DNA of 64,000 nucleotides from a virus. Below are positions 14,462 to 59,009 of this stretch, piece after piece. Both the position numbers and the translations under genes were made by a program. How positions within the stretch are numbered: the first letter of the stretch is position 1; each line of letters starts with the position of its first letter. The DNA is taken from the IMG/VR virus record IMGVR_UViG_3300032293_001706, positions 124,001 to 188,000 of that record; one strand, given 5' to 3'. Below the pieces are notes generated by a model, which was not told the DNA's origin, made no database searches, and was given only the letters and a program-made list of their open reading frames with translations.

Positions 14462-15313
14462 ATGGCATTTACATCATATACACAATATTATAACTCAATA
14501 ATTAATCCTGTTAATAAATACTATTTTAGAGGGGGGGAAATTAATGGAGATACTAGAGGGTTATTTAATGATTTTTTTAACCAAGTTTATCCCGTCGGTA
14601 ACTCACCAAGTAGAACGTTAACACCAGCAACTACGTTAGATAAAAATTCTATGGGAGCAATACCCATACCTCAACTATCTAACAGCTCTAATTATCTGTA
14701 TATATGTGGTGCGGATTTAGGTGTAATATCTAATAATCCTGTTATTGTTTATGATAGGTTGGTAATGTTTAGATATAATCCGACGACAAGTACCGCAACA
14801 ACATTGAATGGATTAAGTGCAACAACAAGATATAGTACCGATAAGAGACTTTTATTTTTTGTTGAAAATAACGCAAGTAGTTTTACAGCCAGAAAAACAT
14901 TTACTATTAATTATACAAATCAAGATGGGGTTGCAAATAGAATTGGGTCTGGACAAATTGCAGACCTTAATGTGATTTCATTAGCGAATGTTAATTATGG
15001 GACATTCGCGAATTTACAATCAGGTGATACCGGAGTTCTAAGTGTTCAATCAATAACAATAAATGGGGCGGCAGATTTACAATTATCTATTGTAAAACCT
15101 TTATGTGTAATAACCGGATATGGACCTCAAACCTCATCCCAATCATCAATACCAAATTTAATCAATGGAGGATTAAACGGGGGTCTTCCTATTATTAATG
15201 AAAACGCTTGTTTGGCTATCATGAGACCCCAATCACCTGCGCCGATACGACTAGCGATATCATCAACTTACATTGGAAACTCAATGGGTAATTTAATAAT
15301 TGCAGAAGCATGA
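14462..15313 (+). CDS. Virion protein, third and most divergent paralogue
   Basis: A 283-residue protein sharing YDRLVMFRYNP, TINYTNQDGVANR, LQSGDTGVLSVQS and NACLAIMRP with the two upstream paralogues but otherwise diverged; the CH of YDRLCH is replaced by VM. It overlaps the next gene by 4 nt (ATGA). Probably a structural protein of the same assembly. Confidence 0.55.
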   Translation: MAFTSYTQYYNSIINPVNKYYFRGGEINGDTRGLFNDFFNQVYPVGNSPSRTLTPATTLDKNSMGAIPIPQLSNSSNYLYICGADLGVISNNPVIVYDRLVMFRYNPTTSTATTLNGLSATTRYSTDKRLLFFVENNASSFTARKTFTINYTNQDGVANRIGSGQIADLNVISLANVNYGTFANLQSGDTGVLSVQSITINGAADLQLSIVKPLCVITGYGPQTSSQSSIPNLINGGLNGGLPIINENACLAIMRPQSPAPIRLAISSTYIGNSMGNLIIAEA

Positions 15314-15507
15314 GACTAAATAGATTTTTTAACGATTCTGCAACCGTAGAAATAAAGGCAATTCCAATTCAAGGTGTTACAACAGGAGGTAGTAAATTTT
15401 GGGTTAAAGTTAGTGGTGTTTGGAAACAAGCAATAACATGGGTTAATGTTAGTGGTGTTTGGAAAATTGCAACACCATTTTATAAAATAGGGGGTAATTG
15501 GAAATGA
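15310..15507 (+). CDS. Small protein with duplicated WVxVSGVWK motif
   Basis: A 65-residue protein containing WVKVSGVWKQA and WVNVSGVWKIA in tandem and ending IGGNWK. Short repeats of this type are common at the ends of phage fibre or tail-tip proteins. It overlaps both neighbours by 4 nt, so it is probably co-translated with the preceding virion protein. Confidence 0.55.
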   Translation: MRLNRFFNDSATVEIKAIPIQGVTTGGSKFWVKVSGVWKQAITWVNVSGVWKIATPFYKIGGNWK

Positions 15508-15797
15508 TAATTCAATATTATATGACATATACAGGTGCGGTAGCGAAATACGCTGAAATTTACGCAACATATCAGTTTGATAACATCTTACCTCAAATAT
15601 CAATTTCATTGTTTAATGAAGAGTATGTGTATTTGTATGACATTCCTTTGGTTGTAGATGAAAGTGTTATTTTAGAATGGAGAAGAATTGCGGAAAAAGA
15701 ACCACAAAAGGCAGGTTTTTTAGATTTTACAATCATTGCTGAATGGGCGTGTAGTAAAAGTGGAATAATACCTTTAGACCCAAACACATTTAATTAA
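15504..15797 (+). CDS. Small protein of unknown function
   Basis: A 97-residue protein. The ATG at 15504 overlaps the previous stop (ATGA) and is preferred to an upstream TTG. The sequence is acidic with many aromatics (ISLFNEEYVYLYDIPLVVD). It ends convergently with the minus-strand glycosyltransferase, overlapping by 8 nt. No family recognised; the context suggests a tail-related accessory protein. Confidence 0.5.
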   Translation: MIIQYYMTYTGAVAKYAEIYATYQFDNILPQISISLFNEEYVYLYDIPLVVDESVILEWRRIAEKEPQKAGFLDFTIIAEWACSKSGIIPLDPNTFN

Positions 15798-18078
15798 TCA
15801 TATTACTAATTTTATCAAAAACGGCAATCGGGTTAATCGATTTCTGACAAATGTGTTGTTTTTTTGTTCCTTTATATACAGGACACCAATCCCAATCTTT
15901 GGTTTCAAACACAAATTCTTCATCATTCCAACAAAATATACAAGTATTATTATTGTATATTCTTGTAACGTTAGTTGTAAATTCGTGACCTTCTTTAGAA
16001 AAACCATTTATCATAAATGTGTGTTTTCCTAACGCCCAATTTAACCAAGATAAACCTGAACCCAACCCAACAAATGCTTCGGCATGGTGTAAATAATTTG
16101 CAACAGTTTGAAACGATTCTCCCCACACATTAATGGTATTGGGAATTTCAAATTTATGTTTTGTTAATGTGACAACTTTATACCCCAACTCCATAATCAT
16201 TTTTGATAATGAAACCCAATTTTCATAGGTCCATTCTTTACATCCCATAGTTGCATTTGGACCAAACACAACATATTTTTCAGAAATAGGTCTTTTAAGT
16301 TTGGGTAAATTAAGACCATAATTTAGTTCATAAAAATCCAAACCCAAAATGTCTGTCGCTGTTTGTTGTAAAGGAATAATATTTACTTGGTTTTTATTTC
16401 TATCGGTATCATTCCATTTACCGTCTTTCTTAAACCAACCTAAACGATATACTGCTTTGCAATTAACGGTTGAGCCAGGTTCAACAAATTCAATATCTTT
16501 ATATGAATCCAAACCCGAAAATAATTTATTGTGAAATGTGGACAAAATAACTTTACATTTATGTTTTTTGGAAAAATCTACAACATAAGGAACCCACGCA
16601 ATTGTATCACCAATCGAACCAGATTCCATTGATATAAGAACCCTTTGATTTTCTAATGAAAAATTTTCAATAACTTGACCATTAATTTTTATTATCCAAG
16701 GAACGTAATATTTTAATCCACATGCTATCCACATATTGTTTTTAATAAACCCCGAATGACAAATTTTATTTGTTGAAGAATCAATAAATTCAACAAAATA
16801 TTCTTCATTTTTTTCACCTAAAATTTCAACTTTTGGACCATCTAAATATGAAATAAAAACATCGTTTTTCTTGTTATCAACCAACAAGGGTTTTCTTTTC
16901 ATAAAATCATTTATGGTATCAACGGCAATTTCACCGACTTTCTCCCAACTGAAATTATCTCTAATTATTTTTGATTCTTTTAATGATTTTTGTTTATATT
17001 TTTTATGGTTTGTATAAACATCTCTTAATTTAAGTTTTAAATCGTTAAAGTCAGGTTCATAATAATTTCCAACAGAAGTGTTAAAATGGTTGTAATCAGA
17101 ATCGCTAACAGGTTTTTCACCAATAATACTAACAGGAATACCAAGACCTTCCGCAAATTCCAACTGACCTGAACAATTCGAATAAATTGATGGAACACCA
17201 CACGCCATTGCCTCCATCAACGGAATATTCCATCCTTCGGACCTGGCACAAGATACAAACGCATCACAAGACTTTAAAATGTCGATATAATCATTCCTTG
17301 ATGGAAAATGTAAAACCTTAATTCGTTTGTCAGTCAAACCATAACGTTTTAATCTTTCCTCTGTTGTTTTTAATCCGTCATTTGAAAAAGGGTTATCAAC
17401 AGAAATAATTAAATCAACAGGTTCGTCCTTATCAAAAGTTTCTATAAAAGATTTGATAATTTCTTTGGTTGATTTTCTATAATCCCAACGGCCTGCAAGA
17501 AAGAATTTAAACCTACCATCAGAAGTTAATTTATGTTTCACTTGTGGATTTGGGAAAAACTCATGACCAACACCTTCAGGAACAACTTTAATTTTATCTG
17601 AAGGGTATCCTTGTTTAATCGTTACATCTTTTTGCCATTTTGACGGAACCCATAATTCATCAAATTCAAGTAACTTATTAAAAAAATCTTGAGGTTGTAA
17701 TGTAGATTCCCAAACATTATATGCAATTTTTGGACCAACGTAATTATCATAAAATACGTAATGATTGGTTTCACATAACACAATATTTAAATCGTGAGAA
17801 GTATGGTCTTTACCATCAGGATATATCGGATAATCACTTCTTGAATTATTAGGTCCGAATAAAATCTGTTGATGTAAAATATCTTTATCAACATCATTTA
17901 AGTATGGTTCACCATTATGAGGTGTCGAATTATAACCCTTCCAAGAATTACCAATTGTAAAGTTCCTAAATTTTACATCAAAGTGTTTGTATAATTCTCT
18001 AAAAAAATGTCTTGTGTGATAGTTATATCCTGTAGTTCCAATGTATGAACCATGACCAAAAATTTTAACTCTATTCAT
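15790..18078 (-). CDS. GT4 glycosyltransferase fused to TibC-like heptosyltransferase
   Basis: A 762-residue two-enzyme fusion. Residues 1-~400 are a GT-B family 4 transferase: GHGSYIGTTGYNYHTR at the N-terminus, VPEGVGHEFF, FFLAGRWDYRKSTKEII, and the C-terminal nucleotide-sugar region SCARSEGWNIPLMEAMACG. Residues about 480-762 resemble autotransporter O-heptosyltransferases (TibC/BAHT, GT9-like): ISMESGSIGDTIAWVPYV, KYVVFGPNATMGCKEW, FVGLGSGLSWLNWALG, and a terminal Cys set (CIFCWND ... WDWCPVYKGT ... HICQKSI) like the metal-binding cysteines of TibC. TibC enzymes glycosylate Ser/Thr-rich adhesins, so the neighbouring Ser/Thr-rich fibres are plausible substrates. It is the only minus-strand gene of the island. 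A region around residue 400-470 links the two domains. Confidence 0.75.
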   Translation of the reverse strand: MNRVKIFGHGSYIGTTGYNYHTRHFFRELYKHFDVKFRNFTIGNSWKGYNSTPHNGEPYLNDVDKDILHQQILFGPNNSRSDYPIYPDGKDHTSHDLNIVLCETNHYVFYDNYVGPKIAYNVWESTLQPQDFFNKLLEFDELWVPSKWQKDVTIKQGYPSDKIKVVPEGVGHEFFPNPQVKHKLTSDGRFKFFLAGRWDYRKSTKEIIKSFIETFDKDEPVDLIISVDNPFSNDGLKTTEERLKRYGLTDKRIKVLHFPSRNDYIDILKSCDAFVSCARSEGWNIPLMEAMACGVPSIYSNCSGQLEFAEGLGIPVSIIGEKPVSDSDYNHFNTSVGNYYEPDFNDLKLKLRDVYTNHKKYKQKSLKESKIIRDNFSWEKVGEIAVDTINDFMKRKPLLVDNKKNDVFISYLDGPKVEILGEKNEEYFVEFIDSSTNKICHSGFIKNNMWIACGLKYYVPWIIKINGQVIENFSLENQRVLISMESGSIGDTIAWVPYVVDFSKKHKCKVILSTFHNKLFSGLDSYKDIEFVEPGSTVNCKAVYRLGWFKKDGKWNDTDRNKNQVNIIPLQQTATDILGLDFYELNYGLNLPKLKRPISEKYVVFGPNATMGCKEWTYENWVSLSKMIMELGYKVVTLTKHKFEIPNTINVWGESFQTVANYLHHAEAFVGLGSGLSWLNWALGKHTFMINGFSKEGHEFTTNVTRIYNNNTCIFCWNDEEFVFETKDWDWCPVYKGTKKQHICQKSINPIAVFDKISNMIN

Positions 18079-18114: not shown

Positions 18115-18963
18115 ATGATTAAATTTGAATTACACAACCAACAAAATCCTGAATTATTTACTTTTAAAGTAGAATTGGATGAAAAATTAAATACAATAAT
18201 AAAAGAACCTTTAATTGTTAAATTTTCCACAATATCTAATGATGGAGGGTGGGAAATAAAATTGAACCCAGGTAATTGGGCAAGTTGGAATGGTGGAGGT
18301 TGTAGTAGATGGAATATAATTGTTATGGATAGTAACCGTAATATTTTATTCACCAGAGAATATAATTCACTTTATGATGGTAGTGATTTAGATAAAGTTT
18401 TTAGTTTATATTGTAAATTAAATAAAAACACAAAAGGAATTGTTGTTGGCGCTCATAATGGAGAATGGGGACATTGGACACAACCCGTATTAGATAAAGA
18501 TACAGAATGTCTTATTATTGAAGGTTCTAAACCGCAATTCGATAAGTTAGTGAAAAACTATGAAAAATATCATAATTGTACATTGATAAATGAAATTGTA
18601 ACAATAGACGGTAGTGATGTTGAATGGTATACAGGTGGAGAAGGATATACTGATTCAATAATAAAACAGGTTAACCAAAGGTTTCTTAAAGAAGAAGAAA
18701 TAAAAACAGAGTTAAGAAAAAGTGTTTCAATTAATGATTTAATTGAAAAACATGGATATCAAGATTATGATTGGTTACATACTGATATCGAGGGATATGA
18801 TGCTGAATTCATAATGGGGTTAAAATATTTACCTAAATTCATCATTTTTGAAAATGAACATTCTAAATTCATTAATACGTATAGTAAAGTATATGAATAT
18901 CTATCTGATTTGAAATATGAAATCATTGAATATGGTATTGATACATTGGCGGTAAAAAGATGA
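18115..18963 (+). CDS. FkbM-like SAM-dependent methyltransferase
   Basis: A 282-residue protein. The first ~95 residues are a small beta domain (WEIKLNPGNWASWNGGG). The rest has a class I methyltransferase layout: GIVVGAHNGEWGHW (motif I), CLIIEGSKPQFDKLVKNY (acidic end of beta-2), and DYDWLHTDIEGYDAEFIMG, the DIEG(Y/A)(D/E) signature of FkbM proteins. FkbM enzymes usually O-methylate sugars, which fits a capping role in the surrounding glycosylation island. It overlaps the next gene by 4 nt. Confidence 0.7.
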   Translation: MIKFELHNQQNPELFTFKVELDEKLNTIIKEPLIVKFSTISNDGGWEIKLNPGNWASWNGGGCSRWNIIVMDSNRNILFTREYNSLYDGSDLDKVFSLYCKLNKNTKGIVVGAHNGEWGHWTQPVLDKDTECLIIEGSKPQFDKLVKNYEKYHNCTLINEIVTIDGSDVEWYTGGEGYTDSIIKQVNQRFLKEEEIKTELRKSVSINDLIEKHGYQDYDWLHTDIEGYDAEFIMGLKYLPKFIIFENEHSKFINTYSKVYEYLSDLKYEIIEYGIDTLAVKR

Positions 18964-19955
18964 AACCTGTAGTAATAATTGATGCTTTTATAGAAAATAA
19001 AAAACAAGAAAATCTACTTGATAATTTTTTAAATTCTATATGTGGAATATATGATATATTCTTAATAAGTAATACGAAAATAAGTCAAGATATTTTGGAT
19101 AAAGTTAATTACTTTTTTTATGATAAAAAAAATAATTTATTCAAAAATGAGTATGATAATTATGAAGGTTTTTATATGTGGTATACATTAGACAGGTTCA
19201 AAATTTTCACACATGCAGAACACAAACAAAAACACGGGTTGTCGGTTTTGATAAATCTGTTTAGGTCTTTAGAATTTGCAAAAGAGTTAGAATATACTCA
19301 TTTTATTAGATTGGAAGGAGATGCAATTTTAGGGGAAAAAACAATCCAAGAGTTTAAGAATTTCTTTAATGAACTAAAAGTTAACAATAAGAAGTTGAAA
19401 TTTTATCTGAATGAAAATACTAATTCACATTCATTTCAATTTTTTGGTGGTGAAATAAACACTTTCTTGAAAAATTTTACAAAGATAAAGAAAGAAGAAG
19501 ATTATCTTTACTTTATTAATCAAAATTATGGTAATAATGATTTTATTACTGTCGAAAAACTAATGTTTGATTCTATCAAAAAAATACCAAATGATGACGT
19601 TATAATAGAAGATGATTTAATTTTAGTTCTGACTGATACCGTTTGGAATCAGTCAACATCTAACGCTCATTTAGATGAACATATGAAAAAATGTCAAACT
19701 GATTTATATAAAGTAAAAAATGACAATAGACTTATACTGTATAGTAGAAGTAATTCAGATGGAAGAATGAGTAGAAAAGTAGTTTTAAAAACTAAAAATT
19801 CTGAAATTATTTTTGATTATCAAATTAATAATTTAGGTGATTGGTTTATTAATTATATCGATGAAGAAATAACGCATATGATTTTATACGATAATAATCA
19901 TATTGTTTATGAAAAAGAAATTCGAGAAATAAAAAATTACATTGAACTTTTGTAA
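18960..19955 (+). CDS. Putative GT-A type glycosyltransferase
   Basis: A 331-residue protein with PVVIIDAFIENKKQENLL and a possible metal/nucleotide-sugar site HFIRLEGDAILGEKTIQEF (DxD-like EGDAIL). Overlap with the methyltransferase and the location between glycosyltransferases support a sugar-transfer role. No family signature is strong enough for a named assignment; the C-terminal ~80 residues form a beta-rich appendage. Confidence 0.5.
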   Translation: MKPVVIIDAFIENKKQENLLDNFLNSICGIYDIFLISNTKISQDILDKVNYFFYDKKNNLFKNEYDNYEGFYMWYTLDRFKIFTHAEHKQKHGLSVLINLFRSLEFAKELEYTHFIRLEGDAILGEKTIQEFKNFFNELKVNNKKLKFYLNENTNSHSFQFFGGEINTFLKNFTKIKKEEDYLYFINQNYGNNDFITVEKLMFDSIKKIPNDDVIIEDDLILVLTDTVWNQSTSNAHLDEHMKKCQTDLYKVKNDNRLILYSRSNSDGRMSRKVVLKTKNSEIIFDYQINNLGDWFINYIDEEITHMILYDNNHIVYEKEIREIKNYIELL

Positions 19956-36088: not shown

Positions 36089-36871
36089 ATGATTAAAAAA
36101 CTCGTACATTTTTCAGATTTACACATTCGTTTATTTAAGGACCATGATTTATATCGCAAAATTATTAGTGATATGTTCTCAGAATTCCGAAAAATAAACC
36201 CTGATAGAATTGTTTTCACAGGTGATTTAGTTCACTCCAAAAATCAGATGACACCCGAATTAATTAATATGGTTTCTTGGGTGTTAACTGAATGCTCTAA
36301 AATTGCAAAAACAATTTTAATAATTGGAAATCATGATTTTCTTGAGAACAATACCGAAAGATTAGACGCTTTAAGTCCAATTATTGATTCACTAAATAAT
36401 GACAATATCATATATTTGAAAAATCGTGGGGTTTATTCCGACTCAAATATAGATTGGTGTGTTTATTCACTATATGAACATAATCTACCACCTGATATTA
36501 ATCCTAACTCCACGAACACCAAGATTGGGTTATTTCACGGACCTGTAGTGGGGCTATCTACGGATATTGGATATAAGTTTGAAGACGGGTTCGATAGTAG
36601 TAAATTTTCAGGTTGTGATGTTGTATTATGTGGTGACATCCACAAAAGACAGATATTTAACATACCTAATGGAAAAAAGGCGTATATGGTGGGTTCAAGT
36701 ATACAGCAAAATTTTGGGGAAAAAGTAACCAATCATGGATTCGGAATTTATGATGTGTTGGAAGATAAATATGAGTTTGTCGACCTAAAAAACCCAAAAC
36801 CATTTTTAGTGTTTAAAATCGACGATTACTCTGTCATTGAAACAGGAACTGAAACGTTAAAAAACTATTAA
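36089..36871 (+). CDS. SbcD/Mre11-like nuclease subunit (T4 gp47-like)
   Basis: A 260-residue calcineurin-like phosphoesterase with motifs in order: FSDLHIRLF (D10, H12), FTGDLVHSK (GDLVH 45-49), IIGNHDF (80-83), GLFHGPV and VVLCGDIHKRQ. It forms the nuclease half of the Mre11-Rad50-type complex with the split SbcC-like ATPase encoded at 37807/39420. In T4 this complex makes ssDNA tails for recombination-dependent replication. It is shorter than T4 gp47 (about 340 aa). Confidence 0.8.
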   Translation: MIKKLVHFSDLHIRLFKDHDLYRKIISDMFSEFRKINPDRIVFTGDLVHSKNQMTPELINMVSWVLTECSKIAKTILIIGNHDFLENNTERLDALSPIIDSLNNDNIIYLKNRGVYSDSNIDWCVYSLYEHNLPPDINPNSTNTKIGLFHGPVVGLSTDIGYKFEDGFDSSKFSGCDVVLCGDIHKRQIFNIPNGKKAYMVGSSIQQNFGEKVTNHGFGIYDVLEDKYEFVDLKNPKPFLVFKIDDYSVIETGTETLKNY

Positions 36872-37806: not shown

Positions 37807-38367
37807 ATGACACATAATTTAGATATAACTTCTTTAGAAAACCCATACATACAAGTGGTGTGGGAAGACACTGCGGAAAATTTTACACAAGAAAGAATTA
37901 AAAGTGTTAGAAGTTATTTCTCCAAAAAATATAATTCAACAAATGTAAATGTTTTAACTAAGGTAAAAACGACTGATGATGTTCAACAAACAGTTGACGT
38001 GTCCGTAAATATTATGGATAGGAATTATCAGTTGGAGTTGGTTAAAGAAGTGTTGAAACAAAGAGGACAGGAAAAACTTTTAGATGATATTTTGGAATTG
38101 GATAAATTCGTTGACTCAAAAATGTCATCAGATGAAGTTCAAGCATTTAAAAAGTGGTATATTAAAAAAATAGAGTTCAGCAACTTTTTATCTTATGGTG
38201 AGAATCAAGTATTAGATTTTGAAAAATGTAATGGTATCACTGTAGTTGAGTCGAATCCCCCTAATTTTGGTGGAAAATGTATTAGGTATAATACAAAAAT
38301 TGATATAGAGTATGATTTAGATTTTATTATTAAAAAATTAGGTTTTATACCTGATGAATTAAAATAA
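37807..38367 (+). CDS. SbcC/gp46-like ATPase N-fragment with N-intein
   Basis: A 186-residue product. Residues 1-157 are N-extein: a ~110-residue extra N-terminal region, then the SMC-type opening WYIKKIEFSNFLSYGENQVL and ITVVESNPPNFGGK, ending exactly at the Walker A lysine. Residues 158-186 are a 29-residue N-intein starting CIRYNTKIDIEYD (block A). The expected Walker A Ser and the rest of the ATPase are encoded 1.4 kb downstream. The ATG at 37807 is preferred to one at 37765 because the latter overlaps the preceding gene. Alone this protein cannot hydrolyse ATP; trans-splicing is required. Confidence 0.85.
   Translation: MTHNLDITSLENPYIQVVWEDTAENFTQERIKSVRSYFSKKYNSTNVNVLTKVKTTDDVQQTVDVSVNIMDRNYQLELVKEVLKQRGQEKLLDDILELDKFVDSKMSSDEVQAFKKWYIKKIEFSNFLSYGENQVLDFEKCNGITVVESNPPNFGGKCIRYNTKIDIEYDLDFIIKKLGFIPDELK
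38278..38364 (+). other. N-terminal half of split intein (29 aa)
   Basis: Begins with Cys1 right after GGK and contains only splicing block A. Such very short N-inteins are known from atypically split inteins of the AceL-TerL type. A stop codon follows directly, so the split is genetic and not caused by an internal stop in a longer frame. Confidence 0.85.
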
Positions 38368-38412
38368 TAAAACCAAATACTTTTTAATTTGATGGAAATA
38401 TTTATATGTTAT

Positions 38413-39423
38413 ATGAATAAAAAATATAATTTTAGTAATGAAGAAATTAACGATATGATAAAAAAATATGTTGATGAACTAAAACCAATATCGTTAATTG
38501 CAAAAAACTACAATGTAGACCCATCAGTTATTAAAAAAAGATTAAAAGACTCAGGAATAAAAATAGTGAAAGGTTCCGCATTTAATATTAAATTTTGGTT
38601 GGAGAAAGGATTGTCACTTGATGAGGCCAAAGAAAAAATTAAAATAATAAAACCAAGTTTAATTGAATATTGGTTACACAAAGGGTATTCATTAGAAGAA
38701 TCTAAATTCCAAACTGAATTACATTTAATGAATACAGAAAGGGCTTATATTCATAAATATGGCGAAGATGAAGGTAAAAAATTATTCTTCTTGAAGAAAG
38801 AAAAGGAAGGTAAATACCATTCACCTAGAAGAATTGAATATTGGATTAAAAATGGTTATTCAATTGAGGAATCAAGACAAAAAATAAAAGACAATCAAAA
38901 TAAATTTAGTCTTGAAAAATGTATTCAAAATAATGGGTTCGATGAAGGATTAAATATTTTTACAAGAAGACAGATTAAATGGCAAGAAACACTTGTAAAA
39001 AATGGTAATCTTAAAAAAGGTTTTTCTAAAATATCACAAGAATTATTTTACATTTTAATGGAAAAATACGATATTAATGAAAGAAGGATGATTAATTTTG
39101 CAACACATAATGGCGAATATAAATTAAAAAATCCTGAAGGTGGCGTTTTTATTTATGATTTTACCGATTTAATAAATAATAAGATTATTGAGTATCATGG
39201 GGATATGTATCACGCTAACCCTAAAAAATATAAAAAAGACGATTATCCTCATCCATTTAGAAAAACTCTTAATTCACAACAAATATGGAATAAAGATGAA
39301 AAAAAAATAAAAGAAGCTAATAACAATAATTTTGATGTTTTAATAATTTGGGATTCCGAATATAGATGGGGAAATAAAAATAAAATAGTTGAAAAATGTC
39401 TTAATTTTTTAAATAAAAAATGA
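38413..39423 (+). CDS. Free-standing Vsr-like (EDxHD) homing endonuclease
   Basis: A 336-residue protein from the ATG at 38413 (an ATG at 38392 is also possible). The N-terminus has a helix-turn-helix (SNEEINDMIKKYVDEL ... IAKNYNVDPSVIKKRL). Three copies of a W(L/I)-x-K/N-G-(Y/L)S-x-(E/D)EA/S motif follow (FWLEKGLSLDEAKEKI, YWLHKGYSLEESK, YWIKNGYSIEESRQKI), probably DNA-binding modules. The C-terminal ~110 residues are a Vsr/PD-(D/E)XK-like nuclease: FIYDFTDLINNKIIEYHGD, then MYH, QIWNKDEKKIKEA and FDVLIIWDSEYRW, as in the I-Bth0305I family. It lies between the two halves of a split intein gene, the known fractured-gene arrangement, and its stop overlaps the C-fragment start (ATGA). Confidence 0.8.
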   Translation: MNKKYNFSNEEINDMIKKYVDELKPISLIAKNYNVDPSVIKKRLKDSGIKIVKGSAFNIKFWLEKGLSLDEAKEKIKIIKPSLIEYWLHKGYSLEESKFQTELHLMNTERAYIHKYGEDEGKKLFFLKKEKEGKYHSPRRIEYWIKNGYSIEESRQKIKDNQNKFSLEKCIQNNGFDEGLNIFTRRQIKWQETLVKNGNLKKGFSKISQELFYILMEKYDINERRMINFATHNGEYKLKNPEGGVFIYDFTDLINNKIIEYHGDMYHANPKKYKKDDYPHPFRKTLNSQQIWNKDEKKIKEANNNNFDVLIIWDSEYRWGNKNKIVEKCLNFLNKK

Positions 39424-39791
39424 AAAAAACAATAACAATTAAAGAGTGTTTTAATTTATTTGAGAAATATGGTAACATAGGACTTAAAGTTAATACGCCA
39501 TATGGATACAAAAATATTAATGGATGTGAGATAACGGAAAAAAATGCAAATATTTTAAAAGTTGTGTTAGAAAATGACAAATATCTCGAATGTTCTATAA
39601 ATCACAAAATAAAAACAAGTAAAGGGGATTTTGTTAAATCTTCAGAATTAAATACAGATAGTTATGTTCAAACCAAAGAAGGCTCAATAAAAGTTAAGAG
39701 TGTTATTAATGAAGGATTAATCGAAGATTTATTCGATATTGAAGTTGATGATGTCAGACAGTATTATTCTAATGATATAGTATCACACAAT
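39420..39791 (+). other. C-terminal part of split intein (124 aa)
   Basis: Contains blocks B, F and G with the catalytic block B His (NHKIKT) and the C-terminal His-Asn, followed by Ser+1. With the 29-residue N-part the intein totals 153 residues, a mini-intein without an endonuclease domain. Confidence 0.85.
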
Positions 39792-41645
39792 TCAGTTTTA
39801 AGCGTTGACTTACCTTTATTTTTATTTTTTAATACTACAACAAAAACAAGTAAAGCTGAGGAAATTTTTAACAGATTTAGTAATAAAGATAAAGTTTATG
39901 TGAAAGGTGAAATTAGAATTGATGGCGAAGATTATATTTTAGTAAGACAAATAACAAGAAAACTATCCAAATCTGGTGAATGGAATGTTAAAACAGAATT
40001 AGATTTCTTTAAGAAATTACCAAACGGAGAATTACAAAATTTTACGGGAGAACAAAGAAGAGAAACTGAAAGTTTTATCAAATCTTCAATTGGAACTATG
40101 GAAGATTTCTTAATGACCATTTTAACAACTGCGTCAAATTTGGAAGATTTAATTGAATCAAAACCAACTGCTAGAGGACAAGTCTTATCAAGATTTTTAG
40201 GTTTGGAATTCTTAAAAAGAAAAGAAGAAATTGGTAAAGAGGTATATTCCACTTTTAGTAAATCAATGATTTCAAATCTTTATAATACAGAAACACTGAA
40301 GAATGAAATTCTTGATTTAAATAATAGTATTCTAAAATATAGAAATGAGATTAATGACATTAATGAGAAAATATCTGATTGTAATCAAAAACTTGAAACA
40401 GGTAAAAAGTTTAAAGAAGAATTGTTATCTCAAAAGTATAATGACATTGACCACGAATTATTAATTTTAAACCCAAATAACCTAAATAATGAAATTGAAT
40501 CGGTTAAAAATAAAATTAGTGATATAGATAGACAGATTCAACAAATAAAAGTTATTGAACCCAAAGAGTTTTATCACGAAGATAAACATGATGAAATCAA
40601 AGACCAAATATCTACCAAACATAAACAAAAAACAATGGTTGATATTAAAATTGATGGATTAGTTCAATTATCTAAAACTGTTTCAGGAGGAATTAAATGT
40701 GAACATTGTGGCATTGATTTAATGAATGCTCAAATCACAGCTGCAAAACTTGCCGAGATGGATTCATTAAGAAATGAAAGTAGAATATTTGGGGATGAAA
40801 TTTCTGAATTGCAAATACAAGAAAAAGGTTATGTACAACTTAAAAAAGATTTTGATGAATACGAGAGAAATAAACTAATCAAAGAAAAGTATGAACTAAG
40901 TCTTGAGTCTGAAAATTTAAAACTTGAAAAGCATCAAAGCAAATTGGAAAGGTATTATGAAGTTCAAGAAAAAATTCAAAAAAACAAACAGATTGAAGAA
41001 AAATTAATCAAGGCTAACTTACGTATTGAGGAAATTGAAAGAGATAAAACACAATACAATAATAAGATATCTTCAAATAATACAATGATTGGAAATTTTG
41101 AAAAAGATATTGCACAAAAGAATGATAAGATTTTAAAAATTGCTGAAGAATTTGAAAAAGAAAAAATCTACAAAACTTATTTGGACATCTATGGTAAAAA
41201 TGGAATATCAAAATTAATAATGAAGACAATGATGCCTCTGATAAATGATGAACTACAAAGATTGTTACAGGATAGTGCATTTTTTAGATTAGAAGTAAGA
41301 ATTAACGATAAGAATGAAGTTGAATTTATCATGATTGATAATAATACTCAAGTTGAAAAGTTGATGTCTTCAGGTTCGGGTTATGAAAGAACAATTGCTT
41401 CACTGGCTTTAAGAGCGGTATTAAGTAAGATATGTTCATTACCAAAACCAAATATAGTTGTAATGGATGAAGTATTCGGGAAAATATCAAATGATAATCT
41501 TGATATGGTAGGTGACTTTTTCGTTAAGATTAAAGAATATTTTGAGAAAATTTTTGTTATTAGTCACAACCCTTTGATAAATAACTGGGCGGATAATACT
41601 GTTAGGATTACTAAGTCAGATAATATATCAAAAGTGATTCAGTAA
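39420..41645 (+). CDS. C-intein plus SbcC/gp46-like ATPase C-fragment
   Basis: A 741-residue product. Residues 1-124 are C-intein: block B (LECSINHKIKTSKGDFVKSS), block F (LFDIEVDDVRQYYSNDI) and block G (VSHN before Ser+1). Residues 125-741 are C-extein starting SVLSVDLPLFLFF, which restores GGKS of Walker A. It then has SGEWNVKTELDFF, long coiled coils around the zinc hook CEHC at about residue 424, the ABC signature region SSGSGYERTIASLALRAVL, Walker B NIVVMDEVFG and the D/H-loop region VISHNP. Spliced with the N-fragment it would give a ~774-residue ATPase partner of the gp47-like nuclease. Confidence 0.85.
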   Translation: MKKTITIKECFNLFEKYGNIGLKVNTPYGYKNINGCEITEKNANILKVVLENDKYLECSINHKIKTSKGDFVKSSELNTDSYVQTKEGSIKVKSVINEGLIEDLFDIEVDDVRQYYSNDIVSHNSVLSVDLPLFLFFNTTTKTSKAEEIFNRFSNKDKVYVKGEIRIDGEDYILVRQITRKLSKSGEWNVKTELDFFKKLPNGELQNFTGEQRRETESFIKSSIGTMEDFLMTILTTASNLEDLIESKPTARGQVLSRFLGLEFLKRKEEIGKEVYSTFSKSMISNLYNTETLKNEILDLNNSILKYRNEINDINEKISDCNQKLETGKKFKEELLSQKYNDIDHELLILNPNNLNNEIESVKNKISDIDRQIQQIKVIEPKEFYHEDKHDEIKDQISTKHKQKTMVDIKIDGLVQLSKTVSGGIKCEHCGIDLMNAQITAAKLAEMDSLRNESRIFGDEISELQIQEKGYVQLKKDFDEYERNKLIKEKYELSLESENLKLEKHQSKLERYYEVQEKIQKNKQIEEKLIKANLRIEEIERDKTQYNNKISSNNTMIGNFEKDIAQKNDKILKIAEEFEKEKIYKTYLDIYGKNGISKLIMKTMMPLINDELQRLLQDSAFFRLEVRINDKNEVEFIMIDNNTQVEKLMSSGSGYERTIASLALRAVLSKICSLPKPNIVVMDEVFGKISNDNLDMVGDFFVKIKEYFEKIFVISHNPLINNWADNTVRITKSDNISKVIQ

Positions 41646-42217: not shown

Positions 42218-42752
42218 GCGGAAGAGCAGAAAAAGTGACGAAAAAACTAAATACTTTTTAGTTGCGTTTGGAGACTTTAGTGGTAAAAAAGAGTTACTTA
42301 CACAAATACTTATGCAGTTTCAACCAATATTAGCATCTAACTTCCTAAAATTTAATTTTGGTGATGATTATATATTAGCCCATTTTGAAACTAATGAAAA
42401 ACATAGGGATGTAATAGAGTTTTGTGATATCATTTTGTCAGGTACATTAAAAAATTATATGGTCATACCACATAATAAAGATGTCTTTATATCCTTTCCG
42501 ACAAATTTTAAAGATTTTTTACTTGATTTGGATAGTAATACAAAATTTGAGAATGACATAATGTCAGTAGATGATTTCACGGATGAAGATGAAGAGATAA
42601 TGGAACAAATATTGTCAGCGATGCTCCACCAAAAAGAAATTGAACCTAAAATATCATTAAACGAGTTATTGGAGAAGGTACATACCAAAGGATTTAAAAA
42701 TTTAACAAAAAAAGAAAAAAACATACTTTATGAATATTCAAAAAGAGTCTAA
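42216..42752 (+). CDS. Hypothetical protein upstream of sigma factor
   Basis: A 178-residue protein beginning MRKSRKSDEKTKYFLVAFGD. The C-terminal ISLNELLEKVHTKGFKNLTK followed by KEKNILYEYS resembles the short helical motif (LDKIxxxGxxSLTxEEKxxL) found at the C-terminus of many Bacteroidota proteins. It overlaps the sigma-factor gene by 23 nt, so the two are probably co-expressed. A regulatory role linked to the sigma factor is possible but not shown. Confidence 0.5.
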   Translation: MRKSRKSDEKTKYFLVAFGDFSGKKELLTQILMQFQPILASNFLKFNFGDDYILAHFETNEKHRDVIEFCDIILSGTLKNYMVIPHNKDVFISFPTNFKDFLLDLDSNTKFENDIMSVDDFTDEDEEIMEQILSAMLHQKEIEPKISLNELLEKVHTKGFKNLTKKEKNILYEYSKRV

Positions 42753-43554
42753 CACATTTTCAAAAAACACAGGTGTAATCAATCAAGAAGAAATTTCTTC
42801 ATACCTTAAAGACATTAGAAAACTAAAAGTAATGACAGTAGAACGAGAAAAAGAACTGTCTGAAAGAATGTTATCGGGTGAATGTAGTGAAAGAGAAAAA
42901 CAAGAAATTTACAATGAACTTCTCGAAGGTAATCTCAGATTTGTAATTACTGTTGCAAAACAATATCAAAACCAAGGGTTGGATTTACCAGACCTAATTG
43001 CTGAAGGTAATTTGGGTCTTATGAAGGCTATTCAGAGTTTTGATTGGTCAAAGAAACTTAGGTTTATATCATATGCCGTATGGTGGGTTAAACAGTCAAT
43101 TATTCAATCATTGAATGAAAATGCAAGAACAATTAGACTTCCTGTTAACGTAGTACAAGAATTGCATAAAGCAAAAAAAGAAGTTGAAAAAGGATTGTCA
43201 GAATTAGATGACAAGTTTTCCATACTACCATCAACGATTAACTTGGAGTCAACCATTAATGAAGACGGTGACACATTGCTGGACATGATTGAAAACCCAA
43301 ACGCAATTCAACCAGATGAAGAATTAAATAATGAACACAATATTAAAGACAAACTTATGTCAACAATGAAAGTTTTAGATGAACGAGAAAGGGCAATTGT
43401 TGAAGATTATTTTGGTCTAACAGGTACTCCAAGAACCTTGGAAGATATTGGGGAAGACTTTAACCTAACAAAGGAAAGGGTTAGACAAATTAAAGAAAAA
43501 GCTTTGAGAAAGTTGAGAAACGAATGTTCTATACTTTTAGACTATTTGCAATAA
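42730..43554 (+). CDS. Phage RNA polymerase sigma factor, sigma70 family
   Basis: A 274-residue protein with sigma regions in order: 1.2 (EISSYLKDIRKLKVMTVERE), 2 (NLRFVITVAKQYQNQGLDLP, AEGNLGLMKAIQSFDW, LRFISYAVWWVKQSI), 3 (TIRLPVNVVQELHKA) and 4 (RTLEDIGEDFNLTKERVRQI, KEKALRKLRNE). Region 1.1 is absent, as in Bacteroidota RpoD (about 285 aa). It would redirect host RNA polymerase to phage promoters. The ATATTTAT(A/T/C) motif before virion-type genes is a candidate target. Confidence 0.85.
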   Translation: MNIQKESNTFSKNTGVINQEEISSYLKDIRKLKVMTVEREKELSERMLSGECSEREKQEIYNELLEGNLRFVITVAKQYQNQGLDLPDLIAEGNLGLMKAIQSFDWSKKLRFISYAVWWVKQSIIQSLNENARTIRLPVNVVQELHKAKKEVEKGLSELDDKFSILPSTINLESTINEDGDTLLDMIENPNAIQPDEELNNEHNIKDKLMSTMKVLDERERAIVEDYFGLTGTPRTLEDIGEDFNLTKERVRQIKEKALRKLRNECSILLDYLQ

Positions 43555-57856: not shown

Positions 57857-58146
57857 TGAAAAAAATTTTTTTATTTACAATGAAAGGATGTCCACATTGT
57901 TTGGATTTAAAAGAAATGTTATATGATGAAGATATTGATTTTGTTGAAAAAGACATTGATGAAAATGATTCTGAATATGAAGAATTTAAGTCCATTGTTG
58001 ACGGAAATGAATATGTACCAGCATTTCTATGTGTCAAAATAGACCAAAATAAAATTGAAGACTATGCAGCTTTAGTTCCCGAAAGAGATTTTCAGGAACT
58101 AAGCGAAGCGGTTGAAATGGTTAAGAATTTCTTAACCAAAGATTAA
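57856..58146 (+). CDS. Glutaredoxin-like protein
   Basis: A 96-residue protein with KKIFLFTMKGCPHCLDLKEM (C12/C15) and the TxP-like position as NEYVPAFLCVK. It is coupled to thioredoxin by a one-base overlap. A pair of dithiol reductants next to each other suggests supply of electrons to nucleotide reduction. Confidence 0.8.
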   Translation: MKKIFLFTMKGCPHCLDLKEMLYDEDIDFVEKDIDENDSEYEEFKSIVDGNEYVPAFLCVKIDQNKIEDYAALVPERDFQELSEAVEMVKNFLTKD

Positions 58147-59009
58147 ACAAATCTTATATCTCTAAGTCTATCTCTTTTTAACCAAGAATAGTTAGTGTTT
58201 TCCTGTAATATCTCGTTTGAAAAGTTATAATTATCCAAATTCAAATGAGATATTACTTTTTCAGGTTCAAAATCAAAAATATCAAGTACTAAACTTTCCA
58301 CCCAATTCTTATTATATAAGAATGAATTACTTTCTATTGAAAGATTAATGGTTTCCCAATTTATATCATTAATGCTAGAATCAGTTGATAAATTTATGGT
58401 AACATCTTTACAAATATTAGATTCAAAAAGAGTGTGTGCAATATATTTGGATAACATGTGAAAATATTTAACACTCCTAATGTCCTTACCAAAAATAGGG
58501 TCAGACTTAAAAGTTTTATTTGTGCTTAGTAGTTCAGTATATTCAGATGGAATTTCAAGATGTGATTCATTAAAGACCACATTAACATATTTGTTATTTT
58601 TAAACACTTTAATGTTAGTATATAATCCTTGACGATTCCAATTTAATATTTGTTGATATTCATCAAAGGAATCTGTATAATCTTTAAATTCTTTATTATA
58701 TGTGTTACTATAAAATATAGTAGTAGTTTCTCTTTCAACACCATATGAAACCATATCAAACACCTTAACAATTATCCTCATTGATTCGGGTATGGTGTCC
58801 ATAAAATTGTTAAACAGTTCTGTTAAATTTATTTTTTTTGTTGATGATGTTTTACCAAAAACAATTAAAAATTCACTTACATTAGAGACACTAATATCTA
58901 CAAAATGTTTCGGGTTATCAGATTTTATTTCTTCGACAATAGAATTTGCCAGTAAATTACAAAGGTTTTCACCAAAATAGGGGTTGTAAATCATATTTTC
59001 ACTAATCAT
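58143..59009 (-). CDS. Hypothetical protein
   Basis: A 288-residue minus-strand protein, convergent with glutaredoxin (4-nt overlap). It contains ISENMIYNPYFGENLCNLLA, KHFVDISVSNVSEFLIVFGK and VINYSWLKRD-type C-terminus (NTNYSWLKRDRLRDIRFV). The first third could be a homodimerising domain; no family recognised. An ATATTTATT motif lies upstream on its strand. Confidence 0.55.
   Translation of the reverse strand: MISENMIYNPYFGENLCNLLANSIVEEIKSDNPKHFVDISVSNVSEFLIVFGKTSSTKKINLTELFNNFMDTIPESMRIIVKVFDMVSYGVERETTTIFYSNTYNKEFKDYTDSFDEYQQILNWNRQGLYTNIKVFKNNKYVNVVFNESHLEIPSEYTELLSTNKTFKSDPIFGKDIRSVKYFHMLSKYIAHTLFESNICKDVTINLSTDSSINDINWETINLSIESNSFLYNKNWVESLVLDIFDFEPEKVISHLNLDNYNFSNEILQENTNYSWLKRDRLRDIRFV

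Follow-up and report, generated by a model that had tools for sequence, protein, structure and literature searches.

The 64,000-nt stretch analysed here (hereafter the window) covers bases 124,001 to 188,000 of the 190,552-base virus record IMGVR_UViG_3300032293_001706 and carries, at positions 37807 to 41645, a gene for an SbcC/gp46-type recombination ATPase that is broken in two at its Walker A motif, with an intein-like tail on each side of the break and an endonuclease-like gene in between. All features of this locus lie on the plus strand. The N-fragment starts with the ATG at 37807 and ends with the stop codon closing at 38367. Its N-extein (37807..38277; residues 1-157 of the ATPase) finishes with ...NPPNFGGK at base 38277, the first part of Walker A. 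As for the C-fragment, it extends from the ATG at 39420 to 41645 and contains, at 39792..41645, the 617-aa C-extein (residues 158-774), which opens with SVLSVD, the Ser+1 of Walker A, and in whose sequence the CxxC zinc hook, the SGSG signature and Walker B are recognisable.

Both exteins match the SbcC-like profile PHROG 77 (E 3.5e-5 for the N-extein, 6e-39 for the C-extein), and the C-extein also matches SbcC_Walker_B (E 3e-5, below the Pfam cut-off). Since the PHROG 77 matches run up to profile position 329 in the N-fragment and from position 337 in the C-fragment, the fragments can be read as the halves of one protein. Relative to the intein-free allele L002, the N-extein is 80% identical over its full length and the C-extein about 71%. 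The gene of the partner nuclease, an SbcD/gp47-like metallophosphoesterase (PF00149, E 9e-13; PHROG 100), is located nearby at 36089..36871, and this partner, together with the split ABC ATPase features, places the broken gene among the SbcC/Rad50/gp46 ATPases. The original prediction, made from the letters of the window, had described a gene broken at Walker A (GGK/S, the slash marking the junction), and its frames, coordinates and residues were all recovered. The rejoined length of about 774 residues that it had given also agrees with the sum of the exteins (157 + 617 = 774), the product itself being predicted. An intact second ATPase gene, which it had named among the findings that would speak against its reading, was searched for in the whole 190.6-kb record, where no second copy of either gp46 half was found.

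The intein halves and the endonuclease gene

The N-intein (38278..38367, stop codon included) is 29 aa long, with the sequence CIRYNTKIDIEYDLDFIIKKLGFIPDELK, and holds Cys1 and block A; its junction region shares 67-69% identity with alleles L009, L010, L082 and L083. The 124-aa C-intein (39420..39791) has a block B His and a block F Asp and terminates in YYSNDIVSHN, the last base being 39791. It is matched with phmmer by the solved inteins gp41-1 (E 2e-6), engineered CatC (4e-6), VidaL (1.7e-5) and NrdJ-1 (1.6e-4). Cys1 directly follows GGK and is kept in all 20 gp46 inteins found at this site (see below), while H62, D106 and H123-N124 of the C-intein are invariant in a seven-sequence alignment; the +1 residue is Ser in the window and Thr in the relatives. 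The catalytic set of a class 1 intein (Cys1, block B His, block F Asp, HN and Ser+1) is therefore complete in the window, and the predicted 29-residue N-intein with Cys1 and 124-residue C-intein ending in His-Asn before Ser were both borne out, with residues conserved among relatives. In length, the N-intein falls within the 15-37 aa described for the N-parts of atypically split inteins in PMC13014065.

The strongest evidence that both tails form one intein comes from alleles L167 and L170, in which this intein occupies the same position as an uninterrupted chain of 147 and 151 aa, respectively, vs. 29 + 124 aa in the window. By comparison with these contiguous versions, the split point separates ...KLGFLPDEL from ITIGEL.... 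When the L170 intein was modelled with AlphaFold (mean predicted local distance difference test, pLDDT, of 84), VidaL (PDB 6vgv) was its best match (E 2e-10), followed by dozens of other inteins; 54 PDB matches have E ≤ 0.001, and all 50 of the matches listed are inteins or intein-like domains. Note that this evidence for the HINT fold concerns the contiguous homologue L170. Taken together, residues, homologues and matches support the two tails as the halves of a class 1 split intein, predicted to splice.

Between the halves, a 336-aa frame occupies 38413..39423. Its ATG at 38413, a start common to most homologues, was preferred over the TTG at 38389, and its TGA overlaps the C-fragment ATG by 4 nt, as ATGA. 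The protein consists of a long helical N-terminal region followed by a nuclease domain at the C-terminus (about residues 227-334), and its model (mean pLDDT 76.7; predicted template modelling score, pTM, 0.42) gave in Foldseek two specific, high-probability matches among its PDB matches: Vsr (1cw0; probability 1.00, target-normalised template modelling score, TM(target), 0.58) and the catalytic domain of I-Bth0305I (3r3p; probability 0.97, TM(target) 0.65). In a pairwise alignment, D249, H262, H267 and D295 lie opposite D51, H64, H69 and D97, the active-site residues of E. coli Vsr; the catalytic residues were matched to Vsr positions, and not residue by residue to I-Bth0305I. D249, E260, D264, H267 and D295 are invariant in the endonuclease family alignment A1, and H262 is replaced by Asn in two members. 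Neither Pfam nor NCBIfam gave a meaningful match, the A1 profile matched none of the PDB chains, and PDB sequence searches were uninformative. The profile comparison suggested with the original prediction thus yielded no match to the EDxHD family, and for this reason the protein is called Vsr/EDxHD-like here and not a proven EDxHD member. As modelled, it is supported as a Vsr/EDxHD-like homing enzyme with predicted cleavage activity, in agreement with the Vsr-like gene, overlapping the C-part by 4 nt, that had been foreseen.

No further copies of the endonuclease family were found elsewhere in the record, and a pattern scan with the profile across 84,980 bacterial and archaeal genomes confirmed no homologue, so that, within the limits of such a scan, the family seems to be viral. 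Upstream of the gene, a short spacer (38368..38412) contains, 6 nt ahead of the endonuclease ATG, the promoter-like ATATTTATA; the other elements have a comparable spacer in front of their endonuclease gene. As eight of the 13 copies of ATATTTATA in the window are situated just upstream of open reading frame starts, an enrichment, it may be a phage promoter element. Also, a conserved sequence like CTTTACCTTTTTGGTTANNNGGTTATATTTATA precedes the endonuclease gene in gp46 elements and is weaker in the window.

Alleles, transfer and selection at the gp46 site

Scans of viral contigs yielded 81 distinct gp46 C-exteins whose junction could be read, 61 without and 20 with an insert. Among the filled alleles, 15 (the window included) are split with an endonuclease gene, three (L173, L183 and L184) are split without it, their elements ranging from 489 to 558 bp, and two (L167 and L170) are contiguous mini-inteins. 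The N-intein measures 29 or 30 aa in every split gp46 form. Since 14 further distinct alleles show this three-part arrangement at the same residue, it is not due to chance; the combination of a fractured gene with a very short N-part was hence confirmed, with the refinement that it is not unique to this phage. In the empty alleles, the junction reads GGK/TVL or GGK/TTL.

The intein-free relatives that had been proposed as a check were thus abundant, and they include one member of a near-isogenic pair. The filled allele L082 and the empty allele L233 share 98% identity in their C-exteins and about 97-98% at the DNA level; compared in 120-bp segments, their flanks are mostly 95-100% identical, for about 2.9 kb on the upstream side and 2.2 kb on the downstream side. 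They differ by an exact insertion of 1,539 bp without footprint (GGTAAA/TGT...AAT/ACAACA). Concerning the split alleles without endonuclease, L184 carries between its halves (L184:3918 onward) a portion of the stretch found ahead of the endonuclease gene in other elements. This remnant indicates a probable trace of endonuclease loss, and supports only the step from split with endonuclease to split without.

On the C-extein tree, intein presence requires nine changes by parsimony, at least six of which are forced by well-supported branches. The inteins (window left out) are 54-93% identical to each other, mostly above 60%, vs. only 27-38% for the exteins across the two main gp46 lineages. For pairs of split alleles, synonymous distances (dS) are mostly lower in the element than in the exteins: in L097/L100, they amount to 0.21 for the N-intein, 0.37 for the endonuclease and 0.69 for the C-intein, vs. 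1.4-2.4 for the exteins, and in L091/L182, to 0.40-0.73 for the element vs. 1.0-1.7 for the exteins. In addition, L167 and L184 have exteins 93% identical and inteins only 77% identical, in different states. The patchy presence on the extein tree, the higher identity of inteins than of exteins, the low dS of the element and the L167/L184 contrast together speak for repeated events of horizontal transfer, in line with homing.

The ratio of non-synonymous to synonymous substitution rates (dN/dS), calculated for pairs in which either allele is of the split type, stays under 0.35 in all parts that gave a finite estimate. It varies from 0.05 to 0.14 in L091/L182, and from 0.13 to 0.33 for the endonuclease in the relatives. 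Judged by these ratios, the exteins, both intein halves and the endonuclease are under purifying selection in the relatives. The present intein tree, with nine of its 17 inner branches drawn open, is too weakly resolved to decide whether the split or the contiguous state is ancestral.

Interpretation and alternative explanations

As a whole, we regard it as highly probable that the locus is a mobile fractured-gene element inserted at Walker A of a phage SbcC/gp46-type recombination ATPase. Judging from the anatomy of the element, we infer that the N-fragment, the endonuclease and the C-fragment would be translated separately, and that the 29-aa N-intein and the 124-aa C-intein would associate into one class 1 intein of HINT fold, in which Cys1, Ser+1 and the terminal Asn would carry out protein trans-splicing. 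This would restore GGK-SVL and yield a 774-residue ATPase, able to pair with the gp47-like nuclease encoded upstream. The Vsr-like endonuclease would, for its part, cut the uninterrupted gp46 alleles of co-infecting phages, repair then copying the element into them.

Several points weigh against this interpretation. Splicing and cleavage are predictions from sequence and models. The window's intein stands apart as the most divergent of its family, with 41-51% identity to all others and a branch of 3.04 in the intein tree vs. a median of 0.14; its block F has Arg where same-site relatives have His, and the Pfam and NCBIfam intein models, the other half of the suggested profile comparison, do match it, below their cut-offs. 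For the endonuclease, the Foldseek E-values are only 0.03-0.4 and the hhalign comparison with Vsr is weak (E 0.004, Prob 8). The selection estimates come from relatives only, as the window has no close relative from which its own dN/dS could be measured, and the record searched for a second gp46 copy may be an incomplete genome.

The divergence of the window's C-intein, and the fact that splicing rests on prediction, would suit a broken remnant, in which an endonuclease gene has invaded and the fragments no longer make a working ATPase. This is very unlikely: both halves have open frames of full length, none of the catalytic intein residues is missing, the exteins and intein halves of relatives with the same split are under purifying selection, the arrangement persists in 15 distinct alleles, and the record holds no other gp46 copy. 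Even less credible is a two-subunit ATPase held together non-covalently, with the intein tails as docking domains that do not splice. Split-intein halves are generally known to bind before splicing, and splicing here is predicted; however, this would leave Walker A severed between Lys and Ser and load the nucleotide site with 29 + 124 additional residues. Moreover, the nucleophiles of the two splice junctions, dispensable for docking, are conserved, and nothing would explain why the contiguous versions retain Cys1, HN and Thr+1. Splicing at the RNA level, by a group I or II intron containing the endonuclease gene, was also considered, as phage homing endonucleases are often found in group I introns (PMC3943268). 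It would make the intein likeness accidental, and was rejected as extremely improbable: the Rfam search of the window gave no intron match, both ends of the insert are read in frame, bear intein motifs and show conservation at the protein level, and contiguous in-frame versions exist.

A genuine split intein that is no longer mobile in this phage, its endonuclease being inactive and the element inherited vertically, deserves separate attention. Three alleles have lost the endonuclease gene, the activity of the enzyme is predicted only, and the window's element is the most diverged. Nevertheless, the window copy keeps the Vsr-type active-site residues, the endonuclease dN/dS is low in the relatives, and within the family, movement is evident from the patchy distribution and the low dS of the element, so that loss of mobility seems unlikely. 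With the mobile element retained as the preferred explanation, a broader scenario is put forward tentatively, as a possibility that we rate somewhat short of probable. A full homing split-intein life cycle would be kept, in extant lineages, at a single gp46 codon boundary, from empty alleles, through invasion by an already atypically split element with its endonuclease, to endonuclease loss (L184) and re-fusion (L167 and L170). In that case, the fractured form would represent an architecture that is both stable and mobile and spreads across P-loop ATPases, and contiguous inteins could have split ancestors as well as the other way round.

Fractured genes in which split inteins are combined with EDxHD (I-Bth0305I-type) endonucleases are known (Dassa et al. 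2009, as reported in PMC13014065, PMC7090010 and PMC6892783). The window shares with them a gene in two pieces with intein halves, a free-standing endonuclease gene in between and a Vsr-like fold; it differs, as far as they are described in these reports, by its SbcC/gp46 host gene and by a split after 29 intein residues instead of the canonical site usual for intein endonuclease domains. The short N-intein and long C-intein recall AceL-TerL and GOS-TerL, which are split after the first helix according to PMC13014065, and the consensus-engineered, atypically split CatC matches the window's C-intein. Unlike AceL-TerL, with its 25-aa N-intein, the gp46 elements have N-inteins of 29-30 aa and another host gene; the comparison with the TerL cases concerns features other than the endonuclease gene at the split point of the window element. 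VidaL, the best fold match of L170 and a phmmer match of the window's C-intein, differs by a 16-aa N-intein (PMC13014065), about 25% identity and another host gene. The TerL1-a inteins of mycobacteriophages lie between Lys and Thr of the P-loop and are not described as split in the account of PMC5050341, whereas the window's intein is split and resides in another ATPase family. Finally, the MIJ3 PolB split intein and AceL NrdHF, as presented in PMC6892783 and PMC7891396, also involve a fractured gene of phage type whose pieces flank an endonuclease gene, but the enzyme is of the HNH or GIY-YIG type and the split is canonical (98 + 48 aa for AceL NrdHF).

A fractured gene with an atypically split intein is thus an already known type. 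A partial literature search, which leaves prior absence unproven, yielded no earlier description of a split or unsplit intein in phage gp46/SbcC. What appears new is the gp46 host gene, the presence within one large family of an atypical split together with an endonuclease gene and a P-loop site, and the series of alleles. Most known naturally split inteins are isolated cases; a single site with empty, split with endonuclease, split-only and contiguous alleles, including a near-isogenic empty/filled pair, makes splitting, homing, endonuclease loss and re-fusion directly testable, and so bears on the way in which such inteins arise and persist. Also, the 18 candidate natural split inteins have N-parts of 29-30 residues, short enough for chemical synthesis and useful in protein semisynthesis.

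The wider family and other features of the phage

The same C-intein/endonuclease family was found at the P-loops of ClpA/ClpB-like, terminase (TerL), DnaB-like, UvsX, UvsW and gp44-like genes, and in other gp46 lineages, with N-inteins of 24-43 aa in most cases with a readable N-part. The phage itself possesses a second fractured gene, outside the window (record 14,982-17,520, minus strand; L229:2983-5521), which codes for a ClpB-like AAA+ ATPase split inside its first Walker A (GEPG/CGKT). It has a 24-aa N-intein and a 133-aa C-intein, 7 nt between the frames and no endonuclease gene. In the UvsX-type elements L085, L214 and L222, the endonucleases share a repeat-like N-terminal region and have different C-terminal parts; that of L085 looks GIY-YIG-like by eye, Pfam giving no nuclease match.

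Also outside the window (L229:6696-7771; record ~18,695-19,770), 36-nt repeats resembling those of CRISPR (clustered regularly interspaced short palindromic repeats) arrays, GTTGAAAGAATCCTTCAAAAGGAGGTTAAAGACACC, occur with a 66-nt period and 30-nt variable spacers, in three small clusters all within one 718-aa open reading frame, which also holds a repeated coding unit of about 255 nt. No exact copy of GTTGAAAGAATCCTTCAAAAGGAGGTTAAAGACACC was found in the viral or genome collections. Within the window, 42730-43554 encodes a phage primary-type sigma factor with regions 1.2, 2 and 4, 15790-18078 (minus strand) a two-domain glycosyltransferase (groups 1 and 9), and 58143-59009 (minus strand) a protein matching, at cut-off, the C-terminal domain of S-adenosylmethionine synthetase.

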